Below, in pieces: positions 2,790 to 36,287 of a stretch of 44,421 nt of DNA. The stretch spans positions 1-44,421 of the forward strand of contig JAKSCL010000014.1 of NCBI GenBank assembly GCA_022360615.1. The letters run 5' to 3'. How positions within the stretch are numbered: the stretch's first letter is position 1; the number at the start of each line of letters is the position of its first letter. This DNA comes from Hyphomicrobiales bacterium. Lineage in GTDB: Bacteria > Pseudomonadota > Alphaproteobacteria > Rhizobiales > JAKSCL01. The notes under the pieces were generated by a model, which made no database searches, was not told the DNA's origin, and saw only the letters and a list, made by a program, of their open reading frames with translations. Both the position numbers and the translations under genes were made by a program.

Positions 2790-3733
2790 ATGGCTGATTG
2801 TCGGACAATAATGAAAAGACCCCGTGTAAGAGTGGGCCATCAAGACCTGCTGCGGGCGGCCGGAGATCGCCGAGGAAAAAACAGGCTCGTCATCATCTCC
2901 GGCGCAGCGGCGCCGCTGATTACCGGTGAGCAATGCGTGCCGACCGGGCTGCACTGGACCTACAACGCCAGCGCCGTTGCCGCGACGACCGCGAGGGAAG
3001 TCGTGGGTGAGGGCGGTAGGACATGGTATTTCATGACGGCCGACTATGTCGGTGGCTATGTCCTTGAAGAAGCAGCCGAGAACGCGCTGATTGAGGCGGG
3101 AGGCGAGGTTGCCGGCAAGATCGCCCATCCCTTCCCCGGCCAAGACTTCTCGTCTTTCCTCTTAAGCGCCCAGGCATCGGGTGCAGACGTGATCGGTCTC
3201 GCAAATGCCGGGAATGACACGATCAACTCCATTAAGCAGGCTGCCGAATTCGGCATCAACCGGACCCAGTCTCTGGCCGCCACGCTTCTTTTCATCACAG
3301 ACGTTCAAAGCCTCGATCTTGAAGCAGCCCAGGGCATGTATCTGACCGAAGCCTTTTACTGGGACTTTGATGAGCAGGCCCGCGAATGGTCAAACGCCTT
3401 CTTTGACGAGCAGGGCCGCATGCCCACGATGATTCAGGCGGGCGTCTATCAGCGGTGCTCCATTATCTGAAAGCCGTTCACGAGACGGGCACCGACGATA
3501 CCGACACGGTGCTTGCCAAAATGCGCGAAATGCCGGTCGAGGACATGTTCGCCCGCAATGGCAGGCTGCGTGAGGACGGTCTGATGGTCCACGACATGTA
3601 TCTTCTTCAGGTCAAGAGCCCTGAGGAATCGAAGTTTTCGTGGGACTACTACCACGTCCGCGCGGTCATCCCGGGTGACGAGGCGTTCAGGCCGCTGTCT
3701 GAAAGCAAGTGCCCGCATGTGGCGGCCAACTAG
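2790..3733 (+). pseudogene. Branched-chain amino acid ABC transporter substrate-binding protein (LivK-like) remnant, N-terminus missing and frameshifted
   Basis: ORFs 2790..3470 (KNRLVIISGAAAPLITGEQCVPTGLHWTYNASAVA...TWYFMTADYVGGYVLEEAAEN) and 3455..3733 (LHYLKAVHETGTDDTDTVLAKMREMPVEDMFARNGRLREDG); no signal peptide or N-terminal lobe; adding one T at about 3450 restores QAGVYSAVLHYLKAV. Confidence 0.8.
2797..2809. promoter_or_regulatory. Perfect 6+1+6 palindrome ATTGTCGGACAAT, FadR-subfamily GntR operator-like
   Basis: Inner TTGTCGGACAA fits the FadR-subfamily consensus TNGTNNNACNA. Confidence 0.5.
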
Positions 3734-3883
3734 GCAGGCCTTTAGGGGAACTTGGGCGGCGGGTTTCGGCTTCCTCACCGGACAGCACCGCCCCTTTTTC
3801 CAAAAGCGATCGCAGCCTTTTCTCCCTGAAACGCTCGAACCGGGTACCTCCGGCGACAAACCGATTTCCCACCGCAGCGCACC

Positions 3884-4749
3884 TTGCGGCTGCGCATCAA
3901 TATGAGACGTAAAATGGCTTATGCGGCCAGAGATCAGGAGATGCCCGTGCCGCCCTCACCGGATGGGCACAGGGGCGCCGGCACAGAAGGCGTGATTTTG
4001 GACGCGCGCCGGCTGGTGAAGGAATTCAAGGGCTTTGTTGCGGTCGACGATGTGTCGATCAATGTGGAGACCGGAACCATCCACGCCCTCATCGGCCCAA
4101 ACGGCGCCGGAAAGACGACGGTCTTTAATCTTCTAACGAAGTTCCTTGCGCCAACCTCAGGCCAGATCGTCTACAAGGGCCGGGATGTCACGAAGCTCGC
4201 CTCTGCCGAAATCGCGCGGATGGGCATTGTCCGCTCTTTTCAGATTTCAGCGGTTTTTTCCCATTTGACCGTTCTGCAAAATGTCCGCGTCGCGCTTCAG
4301 CGCCACACGGGCACGGCCTTCGCCTTCTGGAAACCGGCAAGCAGCCTCAAGGTCTTGAACGCGCGGGCAGAAGACCTTCTGCGCTCAGTCGGCCTCCACG
4401 CTTATCGCGACTTCAGGCCGGAGAACTTCCCTATGGCCGCAAGAGGGCGCTGGAGATTGCCATCACGCTGGCGCTTGAGCCGGAGCTCATGCTCCTCGAT
4501 GAGCCGACGCAGGGCATGGGCCACGAGGATGTCGATCGGGTGATGGAACTCATCAAACGGGTGGCGGAAGACCGCACGGTCCTAATGGTCGAGCACAATA
4601 TGCGCGTCGTCTCGACGATTGCCGGCCGTATCACGGTGCTGTCGCGCGGCGCCGTCATCGCCGAGGGCGACTACGGCACCGTCTCAAACGACCCGCAGGT
4701 GATCGAGGCCTATATCGGCACCAGCAATCCCGAGGAGGAGATGTGGTGA
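3884..4749 (+). pseudogene. Branched-chain amino acid ABC transporter ATPase (LivG-like), frameshifted at about 4428
   Basis: Walker A GPNGAGKTT in ORF 3884..4543; Walker B MLLDEPTQGMGHEDVDRVMELI in ORF 4489..4749. The alternative frame reads YGRKRALEIAITLALEPELMLLDEP across the break, so one base appears missing before TATGGCCGC. Confidence 0.85.
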
Positions 4750-5047
4750 GTATGGCTGCGTCTTTAAGGGAACCTGCCGTCTGCGAGCCTGAGCCAAAGC
4801 AGGCTTGCGGGTGATCATTCCCATGAGAACCGGGGCTTCGGATTGCGGAAACCGGACAAGGGGCGCGTCCGTCTCCTCAGACGGGTCGATGCGGACAAAG
4901 GGCACGGTTTTCAACACCTTTTCGGCTCGCCGGTCCTTCACCGCATGTGGCGAGCAGCTCGCACGATGCATGCACGCACCGAAAGAAGCGTTTTTGAAAA
5001 CAAGCGGTTAAAGAAAGAAACGGAATCAATTTGAACGGAGTCTCAAG

Positions 5048-29293: not shown

Positions 29294-29971
29294 TCACTTG
29301 TCGCACAGCCTGTAGCCCGCGCCGCGCACGGTTCTAAGGTTCTTGCCGTGTGGGCCCATCTTGCGGCGCAGCCGCCCGATATAGACATCGACAATGTTGG
29401 TGAGTGGATCCTCGCTAACCCCCCAGACGGAACTCAGAATCCGCTCGCGCGACAGCACACGGCCGGGATTGCTCAGAAAAAGCTTCAGGATTTCCCGTTC
29501 GGTCGGCGTGAGTTCGACAGGTGTGCCGTCGATTGTCGTTTCGAACGTCTCAAGATCGAGCGTCACGCTTTCCGTCTCAAGGCGTTGCTCTTGGGGGTCG
29601 GTCTTGAATTCGGTAGACCGGCGCGCCAAAGCCTCGATCCGCGCGATCAGTTCATCGAATTCGAACGGCTTGACCAGATAATCGTCCGCGCCGAGCCGGA
29701 GCCCGCCAACGCGATCGTCCAGCGCATCGAGGGCTGAAAGCATGAGGATCGGCGTCCGGTCGCCTCTTGCCCGGAACATACGGCAAAAATCCTGTCCCGG
29801 CAGGCCGGGAAGCATCAAATCCAGGACGATGACCTCATAGTTTTCTTGACGTGTCATCTGAAGGGCTGTTTCGGCATCAGGCAGGTGGGTAACGGACCAG
29901 CCTTCTCCGCGAAGGCCGCGGAGGATGAAATCGGCGACCCGTAGTTCGTCTTCTACAAGGAGGACATTCAT
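29294..29971 (-). CDS. OmpR/PhoB family response regulator
   Basis: MNVLLVEDELRVADFILRGLRGEGW, VIVLDLMLPGLPGQDFC, wHTH ELTPTEREILKLFLSNPGRVLSRERILSSVWG. Confidence 0.96.
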   Translation of the reverse strand: MNVLLVEDELRVADFILRGLRGEGWSVTHLPDAETALQMTRQENYEVIVLDLMLPGLPGQDFCRMFRARGDRTPILMLSALDALDDRVGGLRLGADDYLVKPFEFDELIARIEALARRSTEFKTDPQEQRLETESVTLDLETFETTIDGTPVELTPTEREILKLFLSNPGRVLSRERILSSVWGVSEDPLTNIVDVYIGRLRRKMGPHGKNLRTVRGAGYRLCDK

Positions 29972-30139: not shown

Positions 30140-31735
30140 TTAGCTTCCGATTGCAGCTTGGGGGACCGCCGCTAAATAGGCGCGTCCCGGCAGTGTGAAC
30201 CGAGCCTCGACGCCCTCGCCTGGGGTGCTTGTGAGCGCGATTTGGCCGCCATGGGTTTCGACAATGGCTTTCGCGACCGGTAGGCCTAGACCTGCGCCGC
30301 CGTCATAGCGCAGCGCCGCGTTTGAGCCGCGGAAGAAGCGCTCAAAGACATGGGCAAGGTCATCCTCTGCAAGACCGGTCCCGTTGTCGGAAACGGAAAC
30401 AGCATAGCCGTTCGGTGTATCGTCAAGCCGGACACTGATCTGGCTTCCACCATAAAGACGGGCGTTTTCAAGAAGGATCATCACCACCTGCCGCACCCGC
30501 CCCGGATCAACGCTCAGACGGGCCTGCTCGACGTTTGATGCATAGCTAATCTCGGCGTTCGGGTCAGCGAGGCCTTGGCTGGCTTCAATCGCACTTTGAA
30601 GAAGTTCGCCCAGATCGACCTCCTCGCGGCGGATGCGCACTTCACCGACCTCCTGGCGCGCTACGAAAAGAAGGTCGTCGACAATTCGCGATGTGTGATC
30701 GGCGGCCTCGCGCGTGCGGGTCAGGACATCGCGATACTGTTCTTCGGTTTGATGTTTTGCGCGCAAAGCGACGTCTGCCTCGCCCCTGATAATGGTGAGG
30801 GGCGTGCGTAATTCGTGGCTGACATCGGCCAGGAGCCGCCGCCGGTTCGCATCGGCGCGGCGGAGCGCTTCCAACAGTTTTTCAAGCTGCTCGGTCCGCG
30901 CCGACACCTCGCGTTCCAGCTCATCGCGGGACGCGTTCAAATCACCCTGCCGTGCTTCGACCTTCTCAGCCATGTCGTTAAAGGACTTGGCCACGCGGTC
31001 GAATTCGGTATTCCCTAAAATGGGAATGCGATGACCGAGGTCGCCGTGTCCGACGGCTTCGGCGCCCTTAAGAAGACGTTGAACGGGAAGGGTCAGTGCC
31101 CGGCGCAGCAATGCGATACCGAAAATCGACGTGATCGCAGCGAGCAGGCCCGCCGCAATGGCAGCCCATTCGAAGCGTATCATGGCCGCCTGCATTTCGG
31201 CTTCCGTGCGGGCGACTTCACCCTCTTCCTGTTCGACCGCCTGGCTGATGAGGGCGCGGAATTCGGCATTCATTTTCTGATTCAGCGCTTGCGCCTCCTG
31301 CGTCTTGGTGGCGAAAGAACCCCGCGCATCCTCAAGCGACTGTAGCGCGGCGAACTCGCGCAGGAGGGCTTCAAACTGGCGTTCGACTTGGCTAAGCAAT
31401 TGCAGGTCGGCAATCTTCCGTTCCCCGCCATAGACGATTTCACGGGCAATCAGGCCGCGCAGACGCGTGATATTGCTACGGATTTGATCAAGTAATGGGC
31501 TAATGGTCTCTTGCCTGTCGAAGTTTCCGCTGACCAAGGCATCGCTGTGCTTCTTGAAGAGCTGATAGATGTTGTTCGAAAGCGACAGGTATTCTTGGTG
31601 GACGCGGTGCGCCAAACGCGATTGTTCGAGGTGGTGTTCGGCGGAACGGGCGCTCCAATAGGCCAACCCAGCGCTGGTGAGAGCGATGATGAGAAGCCCG
31701 CTGAAGGAAACCGTCAGCTTGGTGATGTACCGCAT
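30140..31735 (-). CDS. Sensor histidine kinase (HAMP, HisKA, HATPase)
   Basis: 531 aa; two TM segments, HAMP, LLADVSHELRTPLTIIRGEADVAL, VSDNGTGLAEDDLAHVFERFFRG, GAGLGLPVAKAIVETHGG. Confidence 0.96.
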   Translation of the reverse strand: MRYITKLTVSFSGLLIIALTSAGLAYWSARSAEHHLEQSRLAHRVHQEYLSLSNNIYQLFKKHSDALVSGNFDRQETISPLLDQIRSNITRLRGLIAREIVYGGERKIADLQLLSQVERQFEALLREFAALQSLEDARGSFATKTQEAQALNQKMNAEFRALISQAVEQEEGEVARTEAEMQAAMIRFEWAAIAAGLLAAITSIFGIALLRRALTLPVQRLLKGAEAVGHGDLGHRIPILGNTEFDRVAKSFNDMAEKVEARQGDLNASRDELEREVSARTEQLEKLLEALRRADANRRRLLADVSHELRTPLTIIRGEADVALRAKHQTEEQYRDVLTRTREAADHTSRIVDDLLFVARQEVGEVRIRREEVDLGELLQSAIEASQGLADPNAEISYASNVEQARLSVDPGRVRQVVMILLENARLYGGSQISVRLDDTPNGYAVSVSDNGTGLAEDDLAHVFERFFRGSNAALRYDGGAGLGLPVAKAIVETHGGQIALTSTPGEGVEARFTLPGRAYLAAVPQAAIGS

Positions 31736-31754: not shown

Positions 31755-33434
31755 TCACGCCGCTGCGCGGAGTTTAAGAAAACCTGCCGCCGGTCCGTTT
31801 CCGTTCAGGACTTCGTCCGGTGACCCTGTCTCAAGAAGCTTGCCGCCTTCCAAATACCAAATCTCATCCATGGCGCGGGCGATGGCCAGATTGTGGGTGA
31901 TGAGAAGCGTGGTGGCGTCAACGCCGCGCACAAGCCGGTTCACAAGCGAAGGTCCGGCGGCATCGAGCGTATCGTCAGGCTCGTCAAGCAGCATCAATGA
32001 CGGTTTGGAAAGGGCGGCCCGGGTAAGCAGGAGGCGCCGGACCTCACCGGCGGACAAGTTTCGGCCGCCTTCCGTGACCCGGCCATCGAGCCCGCCCAGG
32101 CGTTCAATGGCATCAGACAATCCGAACGCCTCGGCTTCTGCGAGGATGGCATCGTCTTCCGGGCGTTCCTCCGCGCCCATGACAAGCGCGCGGCGCAACG
32201 ACCCCGCCAGAATCGGCGACCGGCTGCCAACAAACGACACCATCCGGCGGCGTTCGCTGGCGTTCAAGCTTTCGGGCGGCGCACCGCCGAAGGTGACCGA
32301 TCCCTCCACTGGCTGTTCGAGACCTGCCGCAAGGCTTAGAAGGCTCGATTTGCCGGCGCCATTTCCGCCGATGACGGCGATCTTGCGGCCGGGTGCGGCT
32401 TCGATATCGACACCGCGCAGGACTGGCGTCGACACCTTTTCGTAAAGGAGTGCGTGCGGTTGATCGGCAAGCGCGTCATCGGAACTGCGTGCCGGCCGTT
32501 CAAGCGGCGGCACCGCCAGCAACGCCTCGCACTTGTCCCGCGCGGCAACCCAGCCGCGATGCCTGTCCCAGACGCCTGCGAGATCGCGCATGGGCTGGAT
32601 CATCAGCGCGACGGCCGCGAGCGCGCCAGCGGCTTCGGCGCCTGAGTTTCCGCTCACGAGAGCGGCAAGAAACAGGCTCCCGGCGGCCACGCCCGCAACC
32701 GCGTCTGGAATGGAGCGCAGGAGCGCTGCACCGCGCGCGCGTATGAGTGCTGAATCAACCAGGGCGTCCGTGCGGCGCGCAAGATGCTGCATCTCGGTTT
32801 GGATGCGTCCGAGGAGGCGAAGTTCCGGTGCATGCGGGATGCGCTCGCTCATGTCGGCCGCAAGCTTGGCACGCCGGGCGCGCAAGCGCTTGTGCGCGGG
32901 GCCAAGACGCGGTGCTGCAATGACCATCGCGGCAAGGCCGATGCCGATCGGAATACTGGCGGCCGCGCCCAGCGCCGGATCGAGGAGGAAAAGCACAAGA
33001 CACGCGCAGGGCAGTACGATACTTGCCGAGATTAGCCGGGCTAGACCAAGGCTGACCCAGCCGCGCACAGCCGCCAGATCGCCCACAAAGCGCATGGAAA
33101 GCCCGCCTGCGCGGCGTTTCGCGACGGCGCGGGCGGAAAGCTTGGTCAAATGCCGGAACAGTTTGGCGCGCAACGCAGCAGCATAGTTCTGGCCGACCCG
33201 TTCCGCGACGACGCGCTCCGCATACCGCAAGACGCCGATCGCCACTCCCGAAAGCCCGATCAGCGCCAAGGCGGTAAGGGGAAGGGTGTCTGCATTGTCC
33301 CGGAACGCGACGAACACATCACGCGTTGCAAAGGCGGCAACGGCGGCGGCGGCGGCCTGGCCGAGTGCGCAGGCCGCAATCCGCGCAATCCCGCGGCCGC
33401 GGCCTGCGGCCGTTATCGAAGGAAGCGCACTCAT
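31755..33434 (-). CDS. ABC exporter, fused permease and ATPase (CydCD/exporter type)
   Basis: Start MSALPSITAAGRG, ATGA overlap with the upstream gene; Walker A GGNGAGKSSLL, signature NLSAGEVRRLLLTRAALSKPSLMLLDEPDDTLDA. Confidence 0.9.
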   Translation of the reverse strand: MSALPSITAAGRGRGIARIAACALGQAAAAAVAAFATRDVFVAFRDNADTLPLTALALIGLSGVAIGVLRYAERVVAERVGQNYAAALRAKLFRHLTKLSARAVAKRRAGGLSMRFVGDLAAVRGWVSLGLARLISASIVLPCACLVLFLLDPALGAAASIPIGIGLAAMVIAAPRLGPAHKRLRARRAKLAADMSERIPHAPELRLLGRIQTEMQHLARRTDALVDSALIRARGAALLRSIPDAVAGVAAGSLFLAALVSGNSGAEAAGALAAVALMIQPMRDLAGVWDRHRGWVAARDKCEALLAVPPLERPARSSDDALADQPHALLYEKVSTPVLRGVDIEAAPGRKIAVIGGNGAGKSSLLSLAAGLEQPVEGSVTFGGAPPESLNASERRRMVSFVGSRSPILAGSLRRALVMGAEERPEDDAILAEAEAFGLSDAIERLGGLDGRVTEGGRNLSAGEVRRLLLTRAALSKPSLMLLDEPDDTLDAAGPSLVNRLVRGVDATTLLITHNLAIARAMDEIWYLEGGKLLETGSPDEVLNGNGPAAGFLKLRAAA

Positions 33435-34540
33435 GCCGCGAGCCCGACACCTTGCGCGCGTTTCTCGGCATTGGGAAGGGGTGTCATCCGCACCGTATCC
33501 GACAGCATGTGGTCGAGAAGAGCTGCGGCCTCCTGCGGATCGCGCAGGGCCTCCCGGGTCATCACGGCGATACCGCAGGCGGCTTCCGCTTCCAGTGTCG
33601 CAAGCGGTGAGCAACTGACCGTGCCGGTCACCGCGGCAGGTTCGATGCCCATGCCCCGAAGGGCCGCGCAGCCGCCCGCAACCGCCAGCGCATCTGGCCC
33701 TGCGAACACGACACCCGCAAAGCCTTCACGGATGTGCGGCGTTTTCAGAAGTTCCGCCGTTTCGTTTTGGAACACACCATCGGCCAGTTCCATGACAGCG
33801 ACATCGCAATCAGCGTCCTTGGCATGGGCGAGGAGTGTGTCGAAACCCGACGCAATCCGTTGCAAAGGCTGGCGGTAGGTGGAAACCATGCCCGCATCCG
33901 TGAAGTCGGCGACAAAGGCTGCGCCTGCATCAATGAAAGCATTGTAGTCGCCAAAGGCGCCCGTTCCGGTGCCTTTGATGGCGGCAACACGGCGTCCGGC
34001 GCGTGTGAGACCATGCGTGAGGCTCGCGACGGCCGTTGTCTTTCCGGAGTTCATGGAGGCTCCAACGACGCCGATGACCGTCAGCGCTGAGGGGCGGGTC
34101 AGCGGCTGAAGGGCATAGGCACCCAGATTGAGGACGGTTCCCGTTTGGCCGGCAAGACGCCCGAGCGGAACAATACGGGTCGGAGGCAACATACGCCCAT
34201 GGCTATGGCGCATGCGGCCAATGACGCCGCCTCCGGCCAGCATGTCCGCGCCTTCCGGATCGAGTTCGGCAATACCCTCGAATTGATCGGGCGCGTAGCG
34301 GTCGCCGCAAGCGAGCACGACAAGATCGCCCACATAGAGTTCCGAATTCCGGCCAGTGGTGAGCTGCACGCGTTTGTGCGATCCGATTTGTATCACTTCG
34401 CCGATGATGAGATCGCCGGACGCCGCGCTCTGAAGGTCGGCGTCGATCAGCACAGCCTGATGTTTTGGGACGCGGCGGGTCGAGAATGCCCATTTGGCCC
34501 GCGCCAACATCTCCGGTTTCAGCGGTTCGGTCGTTGTCAT
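33431..34540 (-). CDS. P-loop NTPase of uncertain family with N-terminal beta-rich domain
   Basis: Start MTTTEPLKPEMLARAKWAF with AGGAG about 7 nt upstream; Walker A VIGVVGASMNSGKTTAVASLTHGLTRAGRRVAAIKGTGTGAFGD; C-terminal CDVAVMELADGVFQNETAELL. Confidence 0.78.
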   Translation of the reverse strand: MTTTEPLKPEMLARAKWAFSTRRVPKHQAVLIDADLQSAASGDLIIGEVIQIGSHKRVQLTTGRNSELYVGDLVVLACGDRYAPDQFEGIAELDPEGADMLAGGGVIGRMRHSHGRMLPPTRIVPLGRLAGQTGTVLNLGAYALQPLTRPSALTVIGVVGASMNSGKTTAVASLTHGLTRAGRRVAAIKGTGTGAFGDYNAFIDAGAAFVADFTDAGMVSTYRQPLQRIASGFDTLLAHAKDADCDVAVMELADGVFQNETAELLKTPHIREGFAGVVFAGPDALAVAGGCAALRGMGIEPAAVTGTVSCSPLATLEAEAACGIAVMTREALRDPQEAAALLDHMLSDTVRMTPLPNAEKRAQGVGLAA

Positions 34541-35461
34541 TTGAAATCTCCTGACGGTCTTCCCGCACGAAACTGCCGGCGGGCGCTTTGATGGAAAGCA
34601 AGGTGTCGGGGTGAGGGCGGTTCCTGCACCGGTGGATGCGCCAAAGATCAGGCGGTCCAGTCCGCCTTGTTCGACGCAGGCCGCGAAATCGTGTCCGCAG
34701 CCGGGTAAAATCTCATGGGAGATATCGGCTGAAAGGCCGCGTTTACGGGCGGCGCACCGCAGAGCCTCGGCCCAGCGCGATGCCCGGGCCGCCCTGTCGC
34801 GGCCCTGTTGCCGTTCGATGTCCGGTCCGCTTCGCGTGTTGCGGTCTGGCCTGTTATCGAACGCTCCGACACACACTGTGATCGGGAGCTGGAGAAATGC
34901 GTCAAGCCGTTCGGCAAACCTCGATCCCCAATCCCGTGTCTGCCCTGGCCTTGACGCGAGGCCATAGGGGAAAAGCGTATCGTCTGGGAAAGTATACCAG
35001 CCGGCGGCCACGACGGTGAGACGGTTGATCGTTTCGGGATGAAGCATGGCGAACCGGTGTGCGAACTGCCCGCCGCCAGAAAAGCCCGCCAAGTCGAAAG
35101 TGGCGGTGAGCCACACACCTTCGTCCTTCAGAGCCCGCATAAGACGGAGAAGCGCTTGATCCGCCCGTCCCTCGCGCACAACCTGTTGGTAGTAGGGCCA
35201 GCTGGTCTGGTCGAAATGCGGGGCGATCACGGGCCGTCCCAATTCCGCTGCCCGCGATGAGAGAAGCGCCGCCTGCTCCTCTGCGTCACGGCGGATCCCA
35301 TGGGTGGCCACAAGAGGCGGCCTTTCAGCGGCAATCATGGCCGGCATGGCAAGCCAGCACGCAAGCGGCACGCGTGCGTCGGCTGGGCGGCGCAGAACGG
35401 TGACGTTCTGCGCCTCGCCGGCTTCACTGGGAAGGGCTGATAAGGTCATGATCAGAGACAC
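34538..35461 (-). CDS. Alpha/beta-hydrolase (PHB-depolymerase/esterase-like); ORF continues in frame into the downstream NTPase without a stop
   Basis: LVATHGIRRDAEEQAALL, nucleophile motif LAGFSGGGQFAHRFAMLHPETINRL, late His ILPGCGHDF; provided ORF 33431..35461 is continuous. Confidence 0.75.
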
Positions 35462-35464
35462 CCG

Positions 35465-36040
35465 TTAGGCGGCTTTGCCGAAGACTTCCTCGGCACGCGC
35501 ACGCGGCAGCATGTCGAAGATCATATGGATACGGTCCTGATCGCCATCGTTGTACGCTTCATGCATCTGATCGTTGTCGAACCACCAAAGCTCGCCTTCT
35601 TTCATCCGCACTTCTTCGTCGGCCGCCTTCATCCACGAGCCGGCTGTTGAGTGCAGGACGAAATGATAACGGTTGCGCACGCGGTAATATTCCCCGCGGT
35701 CGATATGCGGATAAACGCGTTTGCCTGCCGGAAGGCAGACGATCTTGCCGCGTCCGAGGATGCTGTCCTGTTCTTCGGCAAATGCTTCAAGAAACGAGCA
35801 AGCGAGCGGATAAAGTTTCGACGTCGTGGTCCAACGGCTTTCGTGGACGTCACGGCGCTGGCGGCCGCCGATTGCGGATTTGCGCAACCCCCGAAGCGGA
35901 ATGGCGAGGGCTTCACGCTGCACTTCGATCTTGTTCTGACGACCGGTCGCCATATCCCAAGCACCGTCAATCGATGCGATTTCGTCCAGATAGGGCTTCG
36001 GATCGATGTCCGATTTCATGCACTGAAAATATTTCATCAC
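35465..36040 (-). CDS. Aspartyl/asparaginyl beta-hydroxylase family protein (2OG-Fe(II) oxygenase-like)
   Basis: 191 aa; GKIVCLPAGKRVYPHIDRGEYYRVRNRYHFVLHSTAGSWMKAADEEVRMKEGELWWFDNDQMHEAYNDGDQDRIHMIFDM. Confidence 0.85.
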   Translation of the reverse strand: MMKYFQCMKSDIDPKPYLDEIASIDGAWDMATGRQNKIEVQREALAIPLRGLRKSAIGGRQRRDVHESRWTTTSKLYPLACSFLEAFAEEQDSILGRGKIVCLPAGKRVYPHIDRGEYYRVRNRYHFVLHSTAGSWMKAADEEVRMKEGELWWFDNDQMHEAYNDGDQDRIHMIFDMLPRARAEEVFGKAA

Positions 36041-36287
36041 AGGCTCCCATGTACGCCCGAGGGCTGTTGCGTTGTCATGCGCCGCAGCGGTGAGCGCCGG
36101 ACAAACCGGCTGCTGTCCGCGGCGGCGTTTTACGCGGTGGGAGATAGCGAGGATCTGAACTTAAACAACTAAGATATTGATATTTAATAGGTTTTTAAGT
36201 TTTCTGTCATTTTATGTTTAGACAGGCTTCATACGTATTTCACCTAATATTCATGTTCGAAATTGGCTGATTGACGCCAAACGGCTG

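Follow-up and report, generated by a model that had tools for sequence, protein, structure and literature searches.

A stop-free hydrolase–NTPase reading frame in a conserved six-gene cassette of a Hyphomicrobiales bacterium

The window, that is the whole 44 421-nt stretch of Hyphomicrobiales DNA analysed here, carries on its minus strand (35461-33431) a single open reading frame (ORF) of 676 codons from a GTG, in which an alpha/beta-hydrolase is followed by a P-loop NTPase with no internal stop. With moderate confidence we regard this ORF as genuine and specific to its lineage, the outcome of an in-frame join between two neighbours in a conserved, probably two-component-regulated operon. We infer from the sequence that the join is present in the living organism and that both of its predicted products, described below, would be made. 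The sequence-only reading of this DNA had described a hydrolase running in frame and without a stop into an NTPase; this was borne out by the confirmed ORF, and the linker and the 'AGGAGATTTCAAATG' which it had placed at the junction both read as claimed.

The joined frame and its two domains

An alternative start of the joined ORF is the ATG at 35449, and residue numbers of the joined protein are counted from this codon. The features of the ORF are the following:

33431-35461, minus strand: joined ORF hydrolase-linker-NTPase, stop-free, from GTG 35461 (676 codons) or ATG 35449 (672 codons)
34634-35449, minus strand: alpha/beta-hydrolase domain, residues 1-272 (PDB sequence matches, family alignment, confident model)
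34541-34633, minus strand: linker, residues 273-303, translated hydrolase tail and former spacer (low pLDDT, no counterpart in relatives)
34548-34552, minus strand: Shine-Dalgarno sequence AGGAG, 7 nt before the NTPase ATG (-7.1 kcal/mol)
33431-34540, minus strand: P-loop NTPase from its own ATG at 34540-34538, 369 aa (orthologous start, complete domain, SIMIBI-type fold)
34537-34539, minus strand: +1-frame TGA that shares bases with the NTPase ATG (as ATGA) and would end the hydrolase after a one-base shift of the reading frame in its tail

The 96-nt junction contains no stop in any of its three frames. This alone proves nothing, because in a given frame a stretch as long as this is free of stops with a probability of 0.52 in random window DNA and of 0.72 in dinucleotide shuffles. 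A model of the joined protein (pTM 0.58) showed both domains with confidence, while residues 273-304 had a pLDDT below 50 and no secondary structure. The modelled protein thus looks like two folded domains with a flexible tether of ∼31 residues between them.

The hydrolase half matches the sequences of solved chains in the PDB, namely 3d0k (LpqC, a putative PHB depolymerase; E 3.4e-15) and the poly(aspartic acid) hydrolase 6ve6 (E 1.1e-10). In the hydrolase family alignment S124 (in GFSGGG), D198, D202 and H253 are invariant. Neither Pfam nor NCBIfam provided a curated family for the hydrolase or the NTPase half. The likeness to LpqC/PHB-depolymerase and poly(aspartic acid) hydrolase-like esterases lies in these sequence matches; the window hydrolase differs from LpqC-like esterases in its setting, an operon with a hydroxylase, an NTPase and an exporter.

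Modelled from its own Met, the NTPase half forms a complete domain with a pLDDT of 94, and its P-loop residues are kept. Its fold matches SIMIBI-class proteins (SRP GTPases, HypB, dethiobiotin synthetase) in the P-loop part only, and no clear match to a solved structure was obtained for the N-terminal domain. In sequence it leans weakly to MobB, CbiA and DUF1611, under the Pfam gathering score for each; for DUF1611 (PF07755) it scored 13.3 bits against a gathering threshold of 25. What it shares with DUF1611/MobB/CbiA-like SIMIBI P-loop proteins is therefore the P-loop fold and this sequence leaning, and its plasmid homologues carry the RefSeq name DUF1611. A second NTPase paralogue, ∼40% identical and without an adjacent hydrolase, is found on contig 279 of the same genome (G000; L157:10265-11314, plus strand). 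Another NTPase relative (L043:724-2529, minus strand) has a C-terminal extension resembling part of an IS transposase; this extension was considered as a fused hydrolase and rejected, as it looks like a transposase fragment.

The cassette and the junction in relatives

Synteny revealed a conserved cassette with the order Asp/Asn-hydroxylase, hydrolase, NTPase, ABC exporter, histidine kinase and response regulator. In addition to the joined ORF, its members in the window are:

35465-36040, minus strand: Asp/Asn beta-hydroxylase-type gene, first in the cassette (PF05118, E 9.5e-17; synteny)
31755-33434, minus strand: ABC exporter gene, in a 4-nt ATGA overlap with the NTPase stop (PF00005, PF00664; synteny)
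30140-31735, minus strand: sensor histidine kinase (domain search; synteny)
29294-29971, minus strand: OmpR/PhoB-type response regulator (PF00072, PF00486; synteny)

The junction was inspected at all loci where hydrolase and NTPase are adjacent in the window order (∼30, with some duplicates between collections). The two genes are separate at every one of them, the nearest being at ∼61-65% identity, and likewise in two annotated plasmid regions that we viewed. In the relatives, a variable C-terminal tail of some 5-35 residues, closed by a stop of its own, ends the hydrolase; the NTPase begins at the ATG orthologous to that of the window, in most cases with an AGGAG-like site in front. Spacing differs between lineages: hydrolase stop and NTPase start overlap as a 4-nt ATGA in L005, L006, L062 and L112, and the genes overlap by 29 nt in L008 and by 22 nt in L026. 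In other genomes the cassette order differs, or hydrolase and NTPase lie apart. Among these relatives no stop-free hydrolase–NTPase join was found, so that the join is seen in this genome alone. The comparison of hydrolase C-termini proposed in the sequence-only reading has thereby been run: relatives do have a stop and separate genes, and the samples of genus, family, order and class yielded no relative closer than ∼61-65%. A natural fusion as a family-wide trait is not supported, since a stop follows the short variable tail in all adjacent pairs inspected. G778, G780 and G795 seemed to hold further fusions, with frames of 718-735 aa, but direct translation revealed in-frame stops and these candidates were rejected.

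Two further arrangements were observed. In genome G093 the ABC exporter and the hydrolase of a related cassette are joined in a 922-aa ORF (L162:7706-10474, plus strand), an independent in-frame fusion. The hydroxylase-hydrolase-NTPase-ABC part of the cassette is carried by a conjugative plasmid of Sulfitobacter (L160; NZ_CP040754.1), and this part may thus be transferable between species. In PADLOC neither the fused protein nor the hydroxylase had a match, and the ABC gene matched nothing beyond generic ATPase-type entries; an Rfam search gave no match, and a limited literature search found no description of the cassette. The likeliest role of the cassette, proposed with low confidence, would be to modify a small molecule or peptide and export it, under the control of the two-component system.

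The main alternative to a real join is a single-base indel in the hydrolase tail, due either to an error of assembly or sequencing or to a lesion in the strain, with two genes in a 4-nt ATGA overlap as the true state. We consider this possible and give it a substantial minority share of our confidence. In the +1 frame the junction has no stop before the TGA that overlaps the NTPase ATG, and one sister lineage (the four loci named above) regularly has such an ATGA overlap, which is also found at the window's own NTPase-ABC exporter junction. However, the +1 TGA carries little weight, because every NTPase that begins with Met-Thr (ATGAC) will have it. The species is represented by a single assembly (418 contigs, completeness 92.6%, contamination 4.7%), and frame-broken genes at 2790-4760 of the same contig imply that indels, real or artefactual, exist there; most window genes, on the other hand, are intact. 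The variable hydrolase tail offers no homology that would reveal a frame jump. Codon usage cannot settle the question either, because the real tails of relatives (mean score -0.06, sd 0.25) score as poorly as the window linker (-0.22, like non-coding DNA). The choice that the sequence-only reading had posed, between a fusion with a free NTPase and a lost stop or indel, has thus been narrowed in part: the NTPase start is inherited and the join is local to the lineage or the assembly, whereas fusion and indel are not fully separable.

Repeats in the spacer and upstream of the cassette

In ten loci of the clade (L033, L003, L061, L090, L091, L093-L097) the spacer between hydrolase and NTPase contains four TTCA boxes at offsets 0, 11, 33 and 55, all on one helix face. 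This four-box repeat is present in 10 of 10 element-type spacers, where 0 of 200 shuffles equalled the match in any of them, and within 535 kb of cassette DNA it is confined to those ten spacers. It is absent from the window spacer (best match 8/16, no better than shuffles) and was not found elsewhere in the window's genome. The sequence-only reading had passed over this difference from the usual spacer of most clade members. The spacer measures 106 nt in the window versus 145-242 nt in the element-bearing loci; two other clade lineages without the repeat have short spacers as well (87 and 107 nt), and their genes are still separate. A phylogenetic tree placed the window and the element-bearing loci in one clade (support 98/98), within which the position of the window is not separated. 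It is simpler to suppose that the window lineage lost the repeat, and we call this loss likely rather than proven because the tree leaves the forks inside the clade unsettled.

A second repeat, related to the first, precedes the cassette:

36228-36254, minus strand: three-box repeat ATGAA-N6-GTGAA-N6-ATGAA upstream of the cassette, a direct repeat with an 11-bp period

It occurs as a single copy in the 3.9-Mb genome (control 0), and most clade members have matching three-box sites upstream of their hydroxylase gene. As in OmpR/PhoB-type operons, a direct-repeat site with an 11-bp period stands before an operon that encodes a histidine kinase and a winged-helix response regulator. Because the cassette encodes a regulator of the OmpR/PhoB type, we read the repeats as regulator sites: the three-box and the four-box repeats are probably binding sites of the cassette's own response regulator, and the intra-operon four-box repeat is possibly an internal promoter or operator. 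With the upstream repeat in single copy and the spacer repeat in most clade members, the pairing of the regulator with its putative site can be tested directly. Should the fusion be real, the species would be a natural test of the internal site's role, since the site is missing there. We consider the conserved, apparently uncharacterised six-gene cassette with its dedicated candidate control site a by-product of this analysis that is of more use than the join itself.

Origin and predicted products of the joined gene

Our preferred reading, a real join of two neighbours in the window lineage, can be put as a sequence of steps. The ancestor would have had a hydrolase with its own stop, a spacer (with the four-box repeat in most of the clade) and an NTPase with its own Shine-Dalgarno sequence and ATG. 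A collapse of the spacer in the window lineage would have removed both the repeat and the hydrolase stop, and the residual GC-rich junction would by chance have been open in the NTPase frame. Initiation at the hydrolase start would now give a fusion of ∼71 kDa, two folded domains with a floppy linker of ∼31 residues, and initiation at the conserved internal site would give a free NTPase of ∼39 kDa. Such joins can occur, because the ABC exporter and hydrolase of L162 have been joined independently.

Both partners are separate in relatives and form one stop-free ORF in the window, as expected of a natural two-gene fusion; the fusion is not common to related species, all inspected adjacent relatives being separate. 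In-frame fusion of adjacent operon genes is known elsewhere in bacterial evolution, and the join resembles it in that functionally linked neighbours have become one ORF. It differs in that the downstream Shine-Dalgarno sequence and start are intact in the window and that all inspected relatives are unfused. Fusions born from deletions, in which distant gene fragments were joined, have been reported across bacteria (preprint PMC12803068). Common to these and to the proposed history of the window is the loss of intervening DNA with the joining of coding parts; in the window, however, two whole neighbours are joined across a short spacer, and the deletion is deduced rather than observed. The join belongs to known kinds, the operon-neighbour fusion and the internal-start gene, with no new mechanism. 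It is a further example of operon neighbours becoming one ORF while the old start persists.

The second product depends on the internal start. Shine-Dalgarno sequence and ATG at the junction span 34552-34538, and the NTPase Met is residue 304 of the joined protein; an in-frame start codon with a properly spaced Shine-Dalgarno sequence therefore lies at the domain boundary, as expected of an internal start. The pairing of AGGAG with the anti-Shine-Dalgarno sequence (-7.1 kcal/mol) ranks 7th among 187 in-frame internal ATGs of the window genes, so this Shine-Dalgarno sequence is strong but not unique among internal ATGs. At the NTPase starts of L033, L103, L124 and L008 the pairing energy is identical to that in the window. 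We consider the internal start credible because the separate NTPases of relatives begin at the same place, several of them with a very similar AGGAG. The earlier proposal that the NTPase Met has its own ribosome-binding site is in this way supported by orthology, as an inherited start. Two products are accordingly predicted from the sequence, the fusion of ∼71 kDa and the free NTPase of ∼39 kDa.

Single genes with two products of this kind have been confirmed experimentally for phage endolysins, where an internal in-frame start gives two polypeptides that are partly co-assembled (PMC9430671). The arrangement in the window resembles that of the endolysins in having one ORF, a second in-frame ribosome-binding site, and a long and a C-terminal short product that are predicted to share a stop. 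It differs in that the two products are a prediction in a recently joined pair.

The join may also have been selected. In this case an established fusion enzyme would exist in the species or genus, with tethering being functional and the internal start tuning the product ratio. Neither domain looks damaged, the catalytic and P-loop residues being conserved, the internal start is retained in the fused gene, and a separate genome has an independent join involving the hydrolase (L162). On the other hand, the genus is represented by one genome, and tethering is not generally needed because several relatives have NTPase and hydrolase apart or reordered. On balance we think a selected fusion rather unlikely. 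The confidences of these readings overlap, since a real join could be selected or not, and could yield both products or only one.

Strongly doubtful to us is a gene whose internal NTPase ATG is unused and whose sole product is the fusion: internal in-frame Shine-Dalgarno-like sites as strong or stronger do arise by chance (the site is 7th of 187) and this one could be occluded by elongating ribosomes, but its ATG is the orthologous start of the relatives' separate NTPase, with the same pairing energy in several of them, and the domain is complete from this Met. We see equally little prospect for the more specific proposal that the dual-product gene (fusion plus free NTPase) arose from a separately controlled hydrolase and NTPase when the internal response-regulator site was lost, so that a fixed translational ratio would have replaced transcriptional control of the downstream half.

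Elsewhere in the window, the plus strand at 2790-4760 carries a substrate-binding protein without its N-terminus and with a frame change near 3450 and, after it, a branched-chain-type ABC ATPase with a frame change near 4430. These are either decayed transporter genes or sites of local sequence errors.
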